A stretch of 64,000 nt of DNA from Nitrosopumilus sp. b3 (GTDB taxonomy: Archaea > Thermoproteota > Nitrososphaeria > Nitrososphaerales > Nitrosopumilaceae): NCBI RefSeq assembly GCF_014078525.1, contig NZ_MU078694.1:124001-188000 (forward strand), in the 5' to 3' direction. Each line of letters begins with the position of its first letter. Positions within the stretch are counted from its first letter, which is position 1. Under the pieces are notes generated by a model that worked only from the letters and a program-made list of their open reading frames with translations, searched no databases and was not told the DNA's origin. The translations under genes and the position numbers were made by a program. Positions 9,745 to 20,220 of the stretch are shown here, piece after piece.

Positions 9745-10305
9745 CTAATCGTAAACCATTAGATTTTTCTCTTCAAGCAAACTGTGAATTTGATTGACAG
9801 AGCGATGAATGTCTTTTTCAATTCTTGCGCCAACACATACGAGTTTGCCTGAGGCAAAAATTAGAATTACTGTTTTTGGATCAAGCATTCTGTGTATCAA
9901 TCCTGGGAATTGTTCTGGTTCATACATGCTTCTTGGAAGTGTTCTAGCTGCTTGTTCCAAATTCACTTTGCCTCCAAGATTAATTGATGAGACGATATTT
10001 TGAATTGTAACTATGGGCTCGTTTTTAATTTTGATTTTGCCTTTTCTTAAGTTTTGAACAACAATGTTTACTGCTTTGATTGCCATCTCTTCTGATTTTG
10101 CACCTGTACATACCATTTTTCCTGAACCAAAAAGTAGTGTGGCAGTTCGTGGGGTTTTCAGTCTAAATACTGCACCTGGAAATTGCTCTGGATGATACTC
10201 TACGTCGGGAAATTTTTTTGTTATATCTACAAGATCTAATTTCTGCTCAATTGTCGCAGATGCAACTACGTTGACGATTGCTATTACTGGTTTTGTTTCT
10301 GTCAT
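9745..10305 (-). CDS. tbp: TATA-box-binding protein
   Basis: Binds the TATA box and nucleates the archaeal RNA polymerase pre-initiation complex with TFB. 186 residues made of two similar halves (about 9-95 and 100-186). Each half carries the saddle-repeat signature: P-E-Q-F-P-G followed by a strand and L-F-G-S-G-K-M-V-C-T-G or I-F-A-S-G-K-L-V-C-V-G. It is the second gene of an operon led by a TFB gene (22-bp gap). Confidence 0.98.
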   Translation of the reverse strand: MTETKPVIAIVNVVASATIEQKLDLVDITKKFPDVEYHPEQFPGAVFRLKTPRTATLLFGSGKMVCTGAKSEEMAIKAVNIVVQNLRKGKIKIKNEPIVTIQNIVSSINLGGKVNLEQAARTLPRSMYEPEQFPGLIHRMLDPKTVILIFASGKLVCVGARIEKDIHRSVNQIHSLLEEKNLMVYD

Positions 10306-13154: not shown

Positions 13155-13925
13155 CTAGATGATTTTCTTGTGTCTGTATAATGCATATATCATAAACATA
13201 TATGCTATCAACCATAATGTGTTAACTGGGTGGATTGTTGTATACTCTCCAAGTTCTTCAATATAATAATACCACACATCTGTAAATGAATATATGAAAA
13301 TCCCTATTACTAACATAAACCATGCCATTCCCAACACACTGTTTCGGAAAATTGTTGCCCCAAAAATTGCGAGAGATAATATTGTAGCAGAAGCTGAAAC
13401 ATAAAGAATTCCCATGAAATATACTGTGGGGTCATCATTCAAAGTTTCAATAGTAAATAAACCAAACCCCCCAATTAATAATGATGCAATTATTGGAACT
13501 CCTAATTTTGAAGTCACACTCAAATTTTTCTTAAAATATTTAATGTTTTTAACAAGATGATATCCTGCAAAAACATAAAATCCTAAGAAAAATGCGTCTG
13601 CTATGGATGGATAGGGGTCTTCTTCTAGAACCAAGGAATAATAATTATAAATTAAATCTCCTACAAATATTGTGATGAATCCAATTCCTAGTGCAAAATA
13701 TGATTTTCCAAAAACTGGTGATCCTTTGTATCGTTTTGCTACAATTAACGAAACAATTCCAACTACAAAAGATGTGATTCCATATGAGACATCTGCAAAT
13801 GAAAATTCTTCTTGATCAACAAAATTATCTATATAAATTTGATAACTGATGCTTAATGCAATTATGATTATTATCCCCTTTATTCCTAGAATATTTTTAG
13901 TGAATCCAAGTGAAGATTGTTTCAT
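13155..13925 (-). CDS. Polytopic (about 8-TM) membrane protein (copy 1)
   Basis: 256 residues with hydrophobic spans near 13-33, 47-66, 75-98, 110-128, 142-160, 168-192, 197-221 and 235-250. Signature motifs shared with its paralogue at 42914-43690 are DPYPSIADxFF, D/T-x-WYYY-x-E-x-x-GE and HPVNxxW. A related N-terminal sensor module with a PxPSxAD motif occurs, to my knowledge, in bacterial GGDEF proteins; here it stands alone with no output domain. Sensing or transport at the membrane is inferred. Confidence 0.7.
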   Translation of the reverse strand: MKQSSLGFTKNILGIKGIIIIIALSISYQIYIDNFVDQEEFSFADVSYGITSFVVGIVSLIVAKRYKGSPVFGKSYFALGIGFITIFVGDLIYNYYSLVLEEDPYPSIADAFFLGFYVFAGYHLVKNIKYFKKNLSVTSKLGVPIIASLLIGGFGLFTIETLNDDPTVYFMGILYVSASATILSLAIFGATIFRNSVLGMAWFMLVIGIFIYSFTDVWYYYIEELGEYTTIHPVNTLWLIAYMFMIYALYRHKKII

Positions 13926-13982
13926 AATTGAGTATTTTAAGTACTTCTTAATAACATCTTCAAAAAGACTTTTTTAATAAAA

Positions 13983-14714
13983 GTGAGTAATACATGTATG
14001 ATAGACCCAAAAAATCATTGGGAATCAAAGGTATCTGAGCTAAAAAATGAACGAAGATTTGAAGAAGCAATTGAAGTTATAGACAAAGTCCATGATATTC
14101 AAAAATCGGAAAGATCTCCGAATTATTGGTACGAAAAAGCCTTGCATCTATATGAAATTGGGGAGTATGATGATGCCAAAGTTTCCTTGTTCAAAAATTT
14201 AAAAATTAATCAAAAAAACTTTGAAACATTTTTTCTATTAGCAAAAATTTTCTTTGAATTAAAAAACTATGAAGAATCATTAGAATATTTGAATAGGATG
14301 TCTGAAGAACATAACAGAAAACTTTTGAAAAATAGTCAAAAAATTGATCAGATGAAAAATGTTCATAAATTTGAAGAGGCAGTACTATATCATGATAAAA
14401 TAAATCAAGTGAGTACTTTAGATCACAAATATTGGCATCTGCGAGGAATGGTTTTATTTAAATTAAAAAAATTCGCCGAATCAATACCCTGTTTTGAATC
14501 AGCATTGGGAATAAAGTCAGATTATCTTGACGTGTATTATTCATTGGCAAAGGCTGAATTGCATGCGGGGAATAAAACAAAATCATTTAAAATTTTGGAA
14601 AGGTTATGTATTGATGATCCACATAATAAAGAAAAATTACGACTAGATAATGATTTTGAATCTGTAATTAATGAGAAAGAATTTAGACTAATTGTTGGAC
14701 CCTTCAACTTTTAA
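13983..14714 (+). CDS. TPR-repeat protein
   Basis: 243 residues with tetratricopeptide-like helix pairs: NYWYEKALHLYEIGEYDDAKVS (about 50-70), FFLLAKIFFELKNYEESLEYL, WHLRGMVLFKLKKFAESIPCFESAL (about 155-180) and VYYSLAKAELHAGNKTKSF. No signal or membrane span, so a cytoplasmic scaffold. It starts at GTG 13983; MIDPK six codons later is an alternative. It sits between the 8-TM protein (divergent) and a class III cyclase (convergent), suggesting a role in the same signalling region. Confidence 0.75.
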   Translation: MSNTCMIDPKNHWESKVSELKNERRFEEAIEVIDKVHDIQKSERSPNYWYEKALHLYEIGEYDDAKVSLFKNLKINQKNFETFFLLAKIFFELKNYEESLEYLNRMSEEHNRKLLKNSQKIDQMKNVHKFEEAVLYHDKINQVSTLDHKYWHLRGMVLFKLKKFAESIPCFESALGIKSDYLDVYYSLAKAELHAGNKTKSFKILERLCIDDPHNKEKLRLDNDFESVINEKEFRLIVGPFNF

Positions 14715-14719
14715 TATAA

Positions 14720-15925
14720 TTACCATTCTAGACGAATTCCATCTTTTATATTGATTCCGTGATCTTTTTCCCACATGATTTCCTTGAATATGCCTTTTCT
14801 ACTATTTGAAGAAATTTCTAAAATCTCTTTACTTCCATTTTCTGAATTTAGAAAATATAGAACTGGATTAAACTCCATATTTGCATAATGTTTAAAATTA
14901 AATTCAAACAGTTGTGTGTCTGTTGTAAAAATATTTTCAAAATTATTTTTTGCCAATTTCTCATCGTACATAATTTTCACACTTCTTCCATCCTCTCCTT
15001 TAAAGACTGGCTTTGATAATTTAATTATGATTTTTTTAGAGTAAGGTGTAACTGATAATATTTTAGAAATTTTTAACTCCTTTTTATTTTCATCATATAT
15101 CTTAAAATTAAGTTCATTAATCTCTACTTTGGAGTTGGTTATCATGTTTACAATAAGCTCGTATATTGGCTCTGTATGTTGATTTGAAAAATAATATGTT
15201 CTTACAAATCTTCCAATTCCGGGGGTATCTTTTAAAATCACGTCAAATACAATTTTATCACAAATAGATTTTTTTTCAACATCTGAAACTTGATTGTTAA
15301 TTTTAATTTTTTCATTAGGGATGGCGGAATTTCCAAAATCTTCTCCATGAGCTGAATAGATTAGTAAGTCGTCTCCATGTTTTATTCCAAAATTATGTAG
15401 AAGGTGAATTGATTTTTTATATTCGTCAGAAATTTCAAAAATATCTTCAACAATTTCATTACTTAATAATATGTGACTGGAATCTCCCATATCCATAACT
15501 CTTCTAGCAATAATAGCCCCTGGTCCCCACAAATTTACATTTCCATAAATGTCATTTACTACAAAAACATGGCCAATATGACAGCCAATTCTTACTTCAA
15601 TTTTTTCAACATTAGTTGCATTATTGTTATAATCTGCCAATTTTTTATGCAATTCTATTGAAAGTTTTAGGGGCTCATCTGACCCCTTTTTGAATCCTAT
15701 TAACATACCGTCCCCAGTTGGTAATATCAAAAGATTATCTTTTGAAAATTCATTGAACGTTTTACAATCATAAATTAATTCATTTAACACTTTAATTTTT
15801 GTTCGTTGTGTTTCAGTTGAAATTATTGGATTTGATAGTCCTACAATATCTATAAAAAAAAACGAAGCATAAATTAGATCATTTGGAACATCCGAAGTCA
15901 AGCATGTTTTGTATCGAAAATTCAT
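14720..15925 (-). CDS. Class III nucleotidyl cyclase domain protein
   Basis: 401 residues. The N-terminal 200 match the class III adenylate/guanylate cyclase fold: first metal Asp26 in FFFIDIVGLS, second metal Asp72 in LPTGDGMLIGF and an NLWGPGAIIARRV segment supplying the transition-state Asn/Arg. The purine-selecting Lys usually found three residues before GD is replaced (LPTGD), so the substrate or activity may differ. Residues about 225-401 are an unrecognised beta-rich domain. A motif shared with the second cyclase lies 37 bp upstream of the start. Confidence 0.75.
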   Translation of the reverse strand: MNFRYKTCLTSDVPNDLIYASFFFIDIVGLSNPIISTETQRTKIKVLNELIYDCKTFNEFSKDNLLILPTGDGMLIGFKKGSDEPLKLSIELHKKLADYNNNATNVEKIEVRIGCHIGHVFVVNDIYGNVNLWGPGAIIARRVMDMGDSSHILLSNEIVEDIFEISDEYKKSIHLLHNFGIKHGDDLLIYSAHGEDFGNSAIPNEKIKINNQVSDVEKKSICDKIVFDVILKDTPGIGRFVRTYYFSNQHTEPIYELIVNMITNSKVEINELNFKIYDENKKELKISKILSVTPYSKKIIIKLSKPVFKGEDGRSVKIMYDEKLAKNNFENIFTTDTQLFEFNFKHYANMEFNPVLYFLNSENGSKEILEISSNSRKGIFKEIMWEKDHGINIKDGIRLEW

Positions 15926-15961
15926 TTATATCATTTTACTAACCTATCAAATATTGTTTGA

Positions 15962-15975
15962 TTAGCTGATTTGTA
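15962..15975. promoter_or_regulatory. Motif shared by both cyclase upstream regions, copy 1
   Basis: TTAGCTGATTTGTA lies 37 bp upstream of the cyclase start at 15925. TTAGCTAATTTGTA, differing at one base, lies upstream of the second cyclase at 17792-17805. A further TTAGCTTA follows at about 15983. It is a candidate binding site of a common regulator. Confidence 0.4.
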
Positions 15976-16032
15976 AAGAAATTAGCTTAATTTTGAATCT
16001 GACTTAATATCTTTGAATACATTATAGTGAAT

Positions 16033-16158
16033 ATGAGTTTCAGTTCTATTGTAACCTGTATTGTATGTAATTCAAATGCAAGAATCATTGAAGTAAAAAA
16101 ATACAATGGTCTAAGAGGTTTTTGTTCCAATTGTGGTGGAAATTGGCCTGAATCCTAA
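16033..16158 (+). CDS. 41-aa zinc-ribbon protein
   Basis: ATG 16033 to TAA 16158. CIVC at residue 9 and CSNC at residue 31 with a basic loop between (ARIIEVKKYNGLRG) make a compact zinc ribbon. It lies in the gap between the divergent cyclase gene and the HTH regulator at 16206, 47 bp before the latter and on the same strand, so they may share a transcript. Confidence 0.55.
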   Translation: MSFSSIVTCIVCNSNARIIEVKKYNGLRGFCSNCGGNWPES

Positions 16159-16205
16159 ATTTTTTCCAGAATATTTAGATAGTATTAGACAGTGTTTTTT
16201 GTGTT

Positions 16206-17006
16206 ATGGATTCGGAGAAGATCGCAAGTGATTTTTTAGAAATATCTAGTGAACAAAGATTGAATATTTTAAAAAATTTATTTGAAAATAATCTCAATAT
16301 ATCAAAATTAGCGAAATTGCTTGGGGCAACCAATTCTGAGATTCATAGAAATATTGGACGCTTAGCAAAGAATGAACTTATAATTAAATCTCCTGATGGA
16401 AATTATGAATTAACAACATTTGGTGTTCTAGTTTTAAAATTAATCCCTTCATTTAATTTTGTTTCTGAAAATAAATTATTTTTTAATAAACATTCACTTG
16501 AAAATATTGAAACAAAATTTCTTCAAAGAATTGGCTCTCTTCAAAGTAAAAAACAGATTAAAGGGTATGTTAAAGTATTAGAAAAATGGAAAAAAATACA
16601 TGAAAATTCTGAAAAATTTATCTATAATATTTTATCCGAAGTCCCATATTCTAATGAAATAATTGATATTATTTCAAATAAACTTGAAAAGGAAATTCCA
16701 ATAAAATCTATATTTCTAAAAAATGTCATAATTCCAGAAGATAGACGAAAGATATTTGAAAAAAGACAATTTCAAAAATATGTTACAAAAGGCATTCTTG
16801 AAAGACGAATGTCCTCAGTTAATCTTATTGGATTATTTTTAACCGATAAAGAAGCAGCAATATTTTTTCATAATAAAGAAGGGGATGTCGATCTTAGTGA
16901 AATGTTTTCAAGTACTGAAAAAGAATTTAGAGATTGGTGTTTAGATTATTTTGAAAATGCATGGAAGAATTCAACTACCTTCCAAGAAGGAAAATTAAAA
17001 GAGTGA
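16206..17006 (+). CDS. Winged-helix transcriptional regulator with a long C-terminal domain
   Basis: 266 residues. Residues 15-80 form an ArsR/GntR-like winged helix (QRLNILKNLFENNLNISKLAKLL, then SEIHRNIGRLAKNELI and a wing ending YELTTFG). Residues 90-266 form the kind of effector domain seen in archaeal DUF1724-type regulators (VIIPEDRRKIF, ILERRMSSVNLIGLFLTDKEAAIFFHNKEGDVD). It sits between two minus-strand cyclase genes and is a candidate regulator of them. Its ligand is unknown. Confidence 0.75.
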   Translation: MDSEKIASDFLEISSEQRLNILKNLFENNLNISKLAKLLGATNSEIHRNIGRLAKNELIIKSPDGNYELTTFGVLVLKLIPSFNFVSENKLFFNKHSLENIETKFLQRIGSLQSKKQIKGYVKVLEKWKKIHENSEKFIYNILSEVPYSNEIIDIISNKLEKEIPIKSIFLKNVIIPEDRRKIFEKRQFQKYVTKGILERRMSSVNLIGLFLTDKEAAIFFHNKEGDVDLSEMFSSTEKEFRDWCLDYFENAWKNSTTFQEGKLKE

Positions 17007-17016
17007 TTTTCAAATT

Positions 17017-17727
17017 TTAAGATTGGACAAGATAAACCGGATATGATTGTTTAAACCCAATATTACAACTTTTTACTTCTTGAAACTCATGCATCTCTAA
17101 TTTCTTTACGTATTGTTGAAAATCATTTCCTATTACAAATTCATTATGCCCAGCACAATGATTTATTTTTGCGCACATATTAACTGGAGGTCCAATTAAA
17201 TCTATGTCCTTTGAAATATTGGTATTCATCATAATTACTGCCCCATAGTCTGCACTCACACGAAAATTAAGGCTAGGTAGTTTTTTTGACTTTATTTCCT
17301 CTGAAATAAATTGTTGAGAATTGATCATTGCGATACCACAATCCAAACAATTTTTCATACCCTCTAATGTTGAATCTGGAAAATAAAACAATAGGCAATC
17401 CCCGATATTTTTGATGACTTTGCCTCCATGCATTCCAATTATCTTAGACATTGAATTTAGAAAGATCTCATAATATTTTGATAATTGTTCTGAGGAGAGT
17501 CTAGCTGAAATCTTTGTTGAATTTACAATATCTACATAACCAACACAGAATTTTTTAGATTGAGTTGAGAAAGCTACTAAATAATCCGTGGTTGATATTT
17601 GTGGTTTTTCTATTTTTTTTCCATTATCTATAATGGATAATTCTTGAGCCGTTCCTGCAAAACTGTCATAACTAAAAAAATCACTTGAGTTTATGAGATT
17701 ATTAAATTCCACTATCTTGTCAATCAT
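17017..17727 (-). CDS. Class III nucleotidyl cyclase (second)
   Basis: 236 residues, essentially a lone catalytic domain after an approximately 50-residue lead. First metal Asp66 in YVDIVNST, second metal Asp110 in KNIGDCLLFYF with the purine-selecting Lys106 retained, and GPPVNMCAKI at 179-188. The last segment normally reads aaRl; here Lys187 replaces the transition-state Arg, so catalysis may be weak or altered. No membrane span. The upstream region is rich in inverted repeats and carries the motif shared with the first cyclase. Confidence 0.8.
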   Translation of the reverse strand: MIDKIVEFNNLINSSDFFSYDSFAGTAQELSIIDNGKKIEKPQISTTDYLVAFSTQSKKFCVGYVDIVNSTKISARLSSEQLSKYYEIFLNSMSKIIGMHGGKVIKNIGDCLLFYFPDSTLEGMKNCLDCGIAMINSQQFISEEIKSKKLPSLNFRVSADYGAVIMMNTNISKDIDLIGPPVNMCAKINHCAGHNEFVIGNDFQQYVKKLEMHEFQEVKSCNIGFKQSYPVYLVQS

Positions 17728-17984: not shown

Positions 17985-18016
17985 ATAAATTATTTAAAAA
18001 AATTGAAATAATTTAT
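17985..18016. promoter_or_regulatory. 11-bp inverted repeat upstream of the repeat-domain operon
   Basis: ATAAATTATTT / AAATAATTTAT, perfect 11-bp arms with a 10-bp spacer, about 75-105 bp before the GTG at 18090. Pure A/T arms arise by chance more easily, so weight is modest. Confidence 0.3.
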
Positions 18017-18089: not shown

Positions 18090-18794
18090 GTGAGTTTTAA
18101 AATTATTTTATATTCCATAATTTTTTCAAGCATGTTATTTTCTTTGCCCTTGAATATTGTTGATGCTGTAGAATGTTCTGGCGCTTCTTTGCGTGATAAC
18201 TCTACAGGACAATGTGTTCCAGCATGTGGTGATGGGACAAAATTAATCAATGGTAAATGTGAACCTCTTAATTCACTTTTTCCATTTGCGGTTGGTGAAA
18301 TTGAGACAATCGGTGTGGGTATTGGATTAGGAATTTTAGCTACTCTTTATGGAATTTACAGAACAGAAAAAACAAGACGAGAAGAAATCAAAAAAGAAGA
18401 TCTAGAGTTAATACATAATTATGGGAATAAATTATCTGAAATAGTTGAATCTGAAAGACATCTATCTACAAAATTGGATTGTACATTATATGCTGAAAGA
18501 TATCTTGACACAATAGAGCAAGTTGCTACATTATATGATAAAACAATGCTTAGGGATGATGTGGTGGATTATTTTCAAAATCATTTTAGCTATGGAAAAC
18601 ATTTGTGGTTTTGGTATAAAAAAAATGTAGAAAATGTAGCTGATGATCTTTTGGAAAATTATTTTGTAAGGGGACTTCCTGGACATTTATCTAACCTTAC
18701 TTTAGAAGAGAAAAAAAAATATCAAAATGATAGATGGTATTATTTTAGATGGGTATGTGATGGGCGCAAAAAGGAGTTAAAAAATGACAAATAA
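18090..18794 (+). CDS. Membrane-anchored protein with one copy of an unrecognised repeat domain
   Basis: 234 residues. Signal peptide 1-26; short external Cys-rich segment (four Cys at about 28-55, EGF-like spacing in GQCVPACGDGTKLINGKC); one membrane span at about 65-90; then a cytoplasmic helical domain. That domain holds LDCTLYAERYLDTIEQVA, VVDYFQNHFSYGKHLWFWY and DRWYYFRWVCDG, the same three blocks found twice in the next protein. Starts at GTG 18090 and overlaps the next gene by 11 bp. Function unknown; the topology suggests an outside-to-inside sensor or anchor. Confidence 0.65.
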   Translation: MSFKIILYSIIFSSMLFSLPLNIVDAVECSGASLRDNSTGQCVPACGDGTKLINGKCEPLNSLFPFAVGEIETIGVGIGLGILATLYGIYRTEKTRREEIKKEDLELIHNYGNKLSEIVESERHLSTKLDCTLYAERYLDTIEQVATLYDKTMLRDDVVDYFQNHFSYGKHLWFWYKKNVENVADDLLENYFVRGLPGHLSNLTLEEKKKYQNDRWYYFRWVCDGRKKELKNDK

Positions 18795-20124
18795 AAAAAT
18801 TTTATCATTTTTGGGAATTAATAAAAAGAATGATGATGTGAAAATAGATTTCTTTGAAGAATTAAGTCCTAAAGAGACTCTTGAAAAAAATATATCCCTT
18901 TTAAACAAAGAAATTGATAAAGATTCTAACAAAAAACATCATTTAAAAATTTTGCAAGCATTATCTGCACATTTTAATGAACATTCGAAACTTAAAGATG
19001 ATGACATAAGGAAAATTTTTGAAGATTTGAAGTTTAAAGATGATGATCCTATGGAATACATTGCTCGCTATGGTGAAAATTCAACATATCGAATTCTTCC
19101 TGACATAATGACTGATGATTATTATAATATTCCTGATGAAAATGGATTGTCGAAGTTTGAATTACTCCAAATAATTCAAGAATATGGTTTGAGAATTAAT
19201 AATATCAAAAATTTAGAGCGAAAATTAAACTCCCAGTTAGATTGTTCTCTTTATGCTGAACAATATTTAGATACTCTTGAAGAAGTTGCATCATTACATC
19301 GTAAAAGATTAATCCCTCAAAAAGTAATAGATTATTTTAAGAATAATTTTGCTTATGGTATTAATTTAATAAATTGGTATTTCAAATTTGTATTAGAAAA
19401 AAAATATAATGGCAATGACGATTTTGTAACTTTTGATCCTAAAGTAAAAATTTCTTCATCTGAATTAGAATTTGAAACAAATAATATTGATAGCCGATGG
19501 GTAAATTTTAAATGGTTTTGTAGAGGGGGGGAATCAAGAAAAAAAGTAATTGAATCTTTTCATGATTGCGTTAATGATAAATTTATCACACTTCCAGATT
19601 CTATGTATGAATATAATTATTTGCCTCCAGAAGAAGGAATTAATCCTGACAAAGTTTTGGAGATTATGCGTGAATACAGTGTACAATTAACTGAATTATC
19701 TGACAAAGAAACAAAATTGAAGACTCAAATTGACTGTTCAGTGTATGTTGAGCAGTATCTGGATATCCTTGAACAAATTGCATATCTTTTTAATAATAAA
19801 GCTCTCACCACTGATGTTCCAACATATTTTGAAAATAATTTTGCATATGGGTTGACTTTGAAAAGTTGGTATGACTACAAGGTATTTGGAGCCGAAGGTC
19901 AGGAAAATAGATGGAGTGAATTTTTGAAATATTGTGAGAATTTTGAAGATGATGAAAATAATCCAAAACCCATCAAATCCTTTAACATTAGGTTTGTCCT
20001 TCCAGCATCCATGCTTTATTATGATTTTCTCCCAATTGATTTATTTGATAAAAAATCTTCTCTGGAATATCCTGAAGATAAAATTGAATTTGATAGTAAA
20101 TTACATGAGTATGACAATTTGTAG
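18784..20124 (+). CDS. Cytoplasmic protein with two complete copies (and the start of a third) of an unrecognised repeat domain
   Basis: 446 residues, no membrane span. Unit A (about 104-248) and unit B (about 269-387) share the order LPD-x-M, Y-x-(L/I)P, LDCSLYAEQYLD / IDCSVYVEQYLD, YFKNNFAYG / YFENNFAYG, then RW-x-x-F-x-x-C. A third unit begins at about 404 with VLPASMLYYDFLP and is cut short by TAG. After the TAG the same frame stays open for 31 codons (see 20125-20220). The gene overlaps its membrane partner by 11 bp, so they are coupled and likely interact. Confidence 0.65.
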   Translation: MTNKKILSFLGINKKNDDVKIDFFEELSPKETLEKNISLLNKEIDKDSNKKHHLKILQALSAHFNEHSKLKDDDIRKIFEDLKFKDDDPMEYIARYGENSTYRILPDIMTDDYYNIPDENGLSKFELLQIIQEYGLRINNIKNLERKLNSQLDCSLYAEQYLDTLEEVASLHRKRLIPQKVIDYFKNNFAYGINLINWYFKFVLEKKYNGNDDFVTFDPKVKISSSELEFETNNIDSRWVNFKWFCRGGESRKKVIESFHDCVNDKFITLPDSMYEYNYLPPEEGINPDKVLEIMREYSVQLTELSDKETKLKTQIDCSVYVEQYLDILEQIAYLFNNKALTTDVPTYFENNFAYGLTLKSWYDYKVFGAEGQENRWSEFLKYCENFEDDENNPKPIKSFNIRFVLPASMLYYDFLPIDLFDKKSSLEYPEDKIEFDSKLHEYDNL

Positions 20125-20220
20125 TTAAAATATTTAGCATTGCATTTAGATTACAGAAATGAGAATACTGAAAAATTTTGTAAAGAATACTGTGAACTAA
20201 TTGTCAAAATAATGACTTAA
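20125..20220 (+). other. In-frame open extension after the TAG of the repeat-domain gene
   Basis: After TAG 20122-20124 the same frame runs 31 sense codons to TAA 20218-20220, with coding-like composition (LKYLALHLDYRNENTEK, two Cys, then an aliphatic helix). It may be a decayed C-terminus after a nonsense mutation, or a readthrough product. A run of this length is not rare by chance in AT-rich DNA. Confidence 0.35.

Follow-up and report, generated by a model that had tools for sequence, protein, structure and literature searches.

A repeated helical unit shared by a membrane protein and its overlapping-gene partner beside a cyclase cassette in Nitrosopumilus

What might two overlapping genes, one for a membrane protein and one for a soluble protein carrying further copies of the same domain, be doing beside two nucleotidyl cyclase genes in a Nitrosopumilus genome? 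Ammonia-oxidising archaea commonly encode class III cyclases, and membrane receptors that work with cyclases are a known kind of protein. Our literature searches found only general remarks on the class III cyclases of ammonia-oxidising archaea and no description of the architecture of this pair. The locus lies in a 64,000-nucleotide stretch of Nitrosopumilus sp. b3 DNA (the window, to which positions given without a locus name refer) from a genome of 1.79 Mb whose nearest relatives are Nitrosopumilus, and it was singled out in an earlier note made from the sequence alone.

The overlapping genes and their products

The upstream gene (18090..18794, + strand) encodes M234, a 234 amino acid single-pass membrane protein recognised from its open reading frame, hydropathy and an AlphaFold2 model, and has a GTG start codon that is backed by alignment with the homologue from a second genome, G316. 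The downstream gene (18784..20124, + strand) starts with ATG and encodes C446, a 446 amino acid protein judged soluble from its open reading frame and hydropathy. Both open reading frames lie where the earlier note had placed them, with an overlap of 11 bp (18784..18794, + strand).

M234 is predicted to consist of a signal peptide, a cysteine-rich part outside the cell, one transmembrane helix and a cytoplasmic unit (all features on the + strand). The putative signal peptide covers about residues 1–27 (18090..18170) and is suggested both by hydropathy, which is maximal in the N-terminal segment at residues 5–23, and by the presence of the same N-terminus in the G316 homologue. The likely outer segment that follows (18174..18269) contains four cysteines and, in the model, short strands at residues 33–59 (pLDDT about 75–79). 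A second hydrophobic stretch near residues 66–90, with hydropathy peaks at residues 66–71 and basic residues after it on the inner side, marks the predicted transmembrane helix (18290..18360), which appears to run without a break into the cytoplasmic unit. C446 has no transmembrane segment, no hydropathy window exceeding 1.03. With two hydrophobic segments in one protein and none in the other, prediction agrees with the earlier description of a membrane protein with a cytoplasmic partner.

The DNA 5′ of the M234 gene is 81% A+T. The two inverted repeats that had been reported there prove weak and are not conserved: the best of them (17985–18016, with perfect 11-bp arms) has its equal in 10 of 300 dinucleotide-shuffled sequences and no counterpart 5′ of the homologous pair in G316. 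We have accordingly dropped these repeats as a candidate operator. No RNA families were found at the locus.

A three-copy unit and its tail

The two proteins share a helical unit of ~105–130 amino acids, present once in M234 (18381..18770, profile match 1.9e-37) and twice in C446, as unit A (19150..19533, 3.8e-37) and unit B (19645..19947, 2.5e-37), all on the + strand. The M234 copy is 38% and 42% identical to the two C446 units (E = 7.7e-24 and 2.1e-16, respectively), scores 138 bits against C446, whereas none of 2,000 shuffled C446 sequences gives more than 8.8 bits, and a profile gives 122–126 bits for each of the three copies. BLAST, profile and shuffle tests thus agree with the earlier proposal of a three-copy domain common to both proteins. 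Of the three sequence blocks proposed as its signature, the first two are as originally written and the last needs correction, as three residues rather than two precede its cysteine (RWYYFRWVC, RWVNFKWFC and RWSEFLKYC in the three copies). The blocks occur in a fixed order, and over 25 aligned rows their invariant columns read DC..Y......L, Y...F.YG...W and W...C.

The M234 unit is modelled with confidence: the continuous helix (residues 68–124) is followed by helices at residues 128–150, 156–165 and 168–179, with pLDDT of about 86–95 in the core blocks. Confidence is lower for the C446 model (mean pLDDT 68), whose unit helices repeat the M234 order (residues 124–147/151–173/186–204 and 288–311/315–337/346–366). 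The structure prediction called for in the earlier note therefore gives a confident model for the M234 unit and a predicted helix order common to all copies; that the copies share one fold is suggested by their sequence homology together with this helix order.

The C-terminus of C446 had been taken for the start of a third unit. It is better described as a tail: the C-terminal sequence VLPASMLYYDFLP is of the form LPxxM...LP, and a tail of the same type stands behind unit A. In C446, the tail motif is LPDSMYEYNYLP after unit A (19591..19626, + strand) and LPASMLYYDFLPI after unit B (19999..20037, + strand), the latter being the supposed third unit. An LPxxM...L(P) tail follows every C446 unit and every aligned single-unit relative (ending LPKIMLDYN). 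Because a like tail is found behind unit A and at the end of the single-unit relatives, we assign the C-terminal piece of C446 to unit B, which it closes. M234 has no such tail, and C446 has three of these motifs, the third (LPDIMTDDYYNIP, residues 105–117; 19096..19134, + strand) lying before unit A. The N-terminal 100 residues of C446 are predicted to be helical, and this motif hints at a possible remnant of a decayed N-terminal unit. As a candidate, such a unit went unsupported by profile comparison, hhalign aligning the LPxxM tail only.

Searches of Pfam, NCBIfam, PADLOC and PHROGs with the unit yielded no credible family, and a search of PDB sequences gave no match. Fold searches were likewise empty at E ≤ 0.001, both for the M234 and C446 models against the PDB and for the M234 model against BFVD. 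The earlier statement that the signature belongs to no known family stands across all of these collections, and none of the libraries searched contains the unit family.

Relatives of the unit

Beyond the pair, the unit occurs in proteins with a single copy. One such membrane-anchored orthologue is encoded elsewhere in the source genome (G000:C4:318833-319153), profile matches to single-unit proteins are found in 49 of 400 genomes of the class, and the GTDB contig collection contains 28 records with such proteins (L106–L132 among the examples). The single-unit proteins match the unit over its whole length (profile 3e-48 to 4e-42) and, in common with M234, have a transmembrane helix immediately N-terminal of the unit, a feature lacking in C446. 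The single-unit proteins of the Nitrosopumilaceae therefore resemble the pair in the unit itself, in the transmembrane helix directly before it and in the LPxxM tail, but differ in having one unit only and in lacking the cysteine-rich outer domain, the soluble partner and the cyclase neighbour. Their genes show no conserved partner beyond ordinary synteny and no conserved cyclase neighbour.

In a sample of 329 genomes from the phylum, matches are restricted to the Nitrosopumilaceae, with none outside the Nitrososphaeria, and a search of the class added a few weaker matches in other families of the order. From these sequence comparisons, the unit appears to be part of a wider uncatalogued family that is restricted to these archaea as far as sampled. 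One of the 28 GTDB records, a contig titled Phycisphaerae bacterium (L108, JAJDDX010000236.1), encodes a protein 82% identical to a Nitrosopumilus single-unit protein and, because of this identity to an archaeal protein, is very likely a mis-binned archaeal contig. No relatives were found in IMG/VR, INPHARED or PLSDB, that is, no virus- or plasmid-borne copies, and a viral or plasmid origin for the pair was set aside on this ground.

A second pair and the age of the triplication

C446 is encoded in only two of 250 Nitrosopumilaceae genomes, the source genome and G316, one of which is a 78%-complete MAG. The G316 pair (L060 9326-11408, contig JAOTXZ010000018.1; L060/L133) is 46% identical to that of the source genome for M and 52% for C. 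The G316 genes overlap too, an in-frame ATG at 10047 giving a 17-base overlap. The recurrence of the two-gene order in other genomes, proposed earlier as a test, is thus seen for the pair and its overlap in one second genome; wide recurrence is confined to the single-unit relatives.

In a maximum-likelihood tree, which has moderate support and long branches in its distant members, the units of the two genomes group by position, with support of 100/97 for the two M copies, 98/92 for the two B copies and 94/75 for the two A copies. The six together make up a single group (88/83), and the single units of two further genomes, G164 and G166, group with them (89/82) on a long branch. Since the six units group by position, the unit triplication is, on the sequence tree, older than the split of the two genera.

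The neighbouring cyclase cassette

Divergent from M234 lies the gene for cyc236 (17017..17727, − strand), a class III nucleotidyl cyclase (PF00211, 1.8e-10). Beyond it are genes for a winged-helix regulator with a FilR1-middle-type ligand domain (16206..17006, + strand; PF25213 4.2e-10, PF08350 3.5e-6), cyc401, the second class III cyclase, which is divergent and extended at its C-terminus (14720..15925, − strand; PF00211 6.1e-7), a TPR protein (13983..14714, + strand; TPR_2 9.8e-16) and a multi-pass membrane protein of no Pfam family (13158..13973, − strand). This five-gene cassette recurs in the Nitrosopumilaceae (window 13158-17727; L060 11778-16418; L090 9665-14253; L091 10306-14928), with two class III cyclases flanking the winged-helix regulator, then the TPR protein, then the multi-pass membrane protein. 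L093, L095, L099 and L105 have a shorter version of three genes, for a cyclase, a longer second cyclase and the regulator.

Cyc236 retains both metal-binding aspartate motifs (GYVDIVNS and KNIGD) and has lysine and aspartate at the class III substrate-specificity positions; lysine and aspartate there go with adenine. Because of these adenine-type positions and the metal motifs, cyc236 can be read from its sequence as a probable adenylyl cyclase. In its NxxxR motif the asparagine is kept and the arginine is replaced by lysine (VNMCAK), as in most orthologues read. Cyc401 keeps the metal aspartate motifs and lacks the adenylyl-type lysine and asparagine (LPTGDG, WGPGAIIARRV), and may thus have an unusual substrate or activity. 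The catalytic domain of cyc236 aligns with that of CyaB (PDB 3r5g, 6.1e-15). CyaB-type proteins usually carry their membrane-sensing part on the cyclase chain itself, whereas the candidate membrane receptor here is a separate gene pair.

The earlier note had remarked on the proximity of the pair to two cyclases, and this link is strengthened by G316: in both carriers the pair borders cyc236 in the same cassette, on the same side of it but inverted relative to it in G316, and a HEAT-repeat protein gene adjoins the cassette in both. In the source genome the pair and cyc236 are divergently transcribed and are not one operon. G164 and G166 each have a single-unit gene at a distance of about 0.8 kb from a related cassette, the two being separated by a cupin gene. 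Cupin, single-unit, FAD-dependent halogenase-like and LodA-like oxidase genes are syntenic beside a related cyclase cassette in two genomes (L066 9417-13603; L067 4819-8720).

In genomes without the pair, the slot by cyc236 is occupied by a clostripain-family peptidase, caspase-domain proteins or large secreted surface proteins (L091 7388-9865; L092 7559-9193 and 12523-14043; L093 5695-9609; L099 10723-12576), and it may be a variable partner slot. G071 and G390 have the cassette but not the pair, and cut contigs of G253, G177 and G166 (contig C102) bear parts of the cassette, again with no pair. Since at least five close cassette relatives are without the pair, the cassette does not need it.

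What might the pair do?

We consider it about an even bet (probability roughly 0.5) that M234 acts as receptor or anchor and C446 as adaptor, the docked pair serving the adjacent cyclase circuit. The pair would have arisen by triplication of a membrane-proximal helical unit that is widespread in single copy in the Nitrosopumilaceae. The N-terminus of M234 would be secreted first, displaying a small cysteine-rich domain outside, and after a single membrane crossing the transmembrane helix would continue as one long rigid helix into the cytoplasmic unit. C446 would be co-translated from the overlapping gene and contribute two more units, which probably dock on the M234 unit by like-with-like helical packing. 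The assembly would then probably regulate, localise or report to the two cyclases, the winged-helix regulator and the TPR protein. Docking between units, the direction of signalling and control of the cyclases are all inferred. A stronger version, in which a receptor and adaptor built from three paralogous units relay an outside signal to a two-cyclase, winged-helix cAMP circuit, is offered tentatively. The association with the cyclases rests on few events, there being two pair-carrying genomes, and its weight is further limited by the close cassette relatives that lack the pair and by the single-unit relatives, with no conserved cyclase neighbour.

The main rival to the receptor–adaptor reading takes the pair for a membrane-anchored scaffold or envelope-organising complex, in which the units oligomerise, the cysteine-rich domain attaches to the S-layer or to the cell surface, and the cassette is a bystander. 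That single-unit relatives are common away from cyclases, that cassettes exist without the pair and that elsewhere the slot adjacent to cyc236 is filled by unrelated surface or protease genes would all fit such a role. A bystander cassette is harder to square with a pair that is missing from 248 of 250 genomes but in each of its two carriers lies against the same cassette, or with the single-unit proteins near related cassettes in two further genomes, and we regard the scaffold as possible but doubtful. Considerably less likely still is an anti-virus role of the Pycsar type (PycC with PycTM or PycTIR), in which cyc236 would be the cyclase and M234/C446 would serve as membrane effector. This locus and Pycsar both have a class III cyclase beside a membrane-protein gene, PADLOC PycC models match cyc236 (best 2.1e-15), the distribution of the pair is patchy, one of its members is a membrane protein and transmembrane types are among the known Pycsar effectors (PMC11224242). 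The PycC models match class III cyclases generically, however; neither M234 nor C446 has a PADLOC, CNBD or TIR match, cyc236 appears from its sequence to have the adenylyl-type lysine and aspartate, and virus- or plasmid-borne copies are lacking in the three collections searched. Moreover, Pycsar as described comprises a cyclase and a receptor-effector only, to which the regulator, TPR protein and second cyclase are foreign (PMC11224242).

A further alternative concerns the unit rather than its role and is compatible with any of these functional readings: that the unit is a divergent member of DUF4760 (PF15956), the pair being a repeat-containing variant. DUF4760 is likewise helical and uncharacterised, some of its members have a similar layout of a transmembrane helix followed by several helices, DUF4760 proteins are present in the same archaeal class, and hhalign places the membrane-proximal helices in register (P = 0.006). 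Set against this, the hhalign probability is just 6% and falls further with narrower profiles, profile searches are empty in both directions, neither the pair nor any of 20 relatives has a Pfam match, and DUF4760 lacks the DC..Y...YLD, YF..F.YG and RW..F...C blocks. The source genome has no PF15956 match. On the profile and hhalign results, membership of DUF4760, the nearest candidate family, is not established, and we think the relationship improbable.

Outlook

The receptor–adaptor reading makes the locus a compact candidate, in which a conserved cyclase–regulator–cyclase cassette is accompanied by a receptor-like pair that varies between species. For the specialist, the domain family is new, and the locus could serve as a testable cAMP module in archaea.
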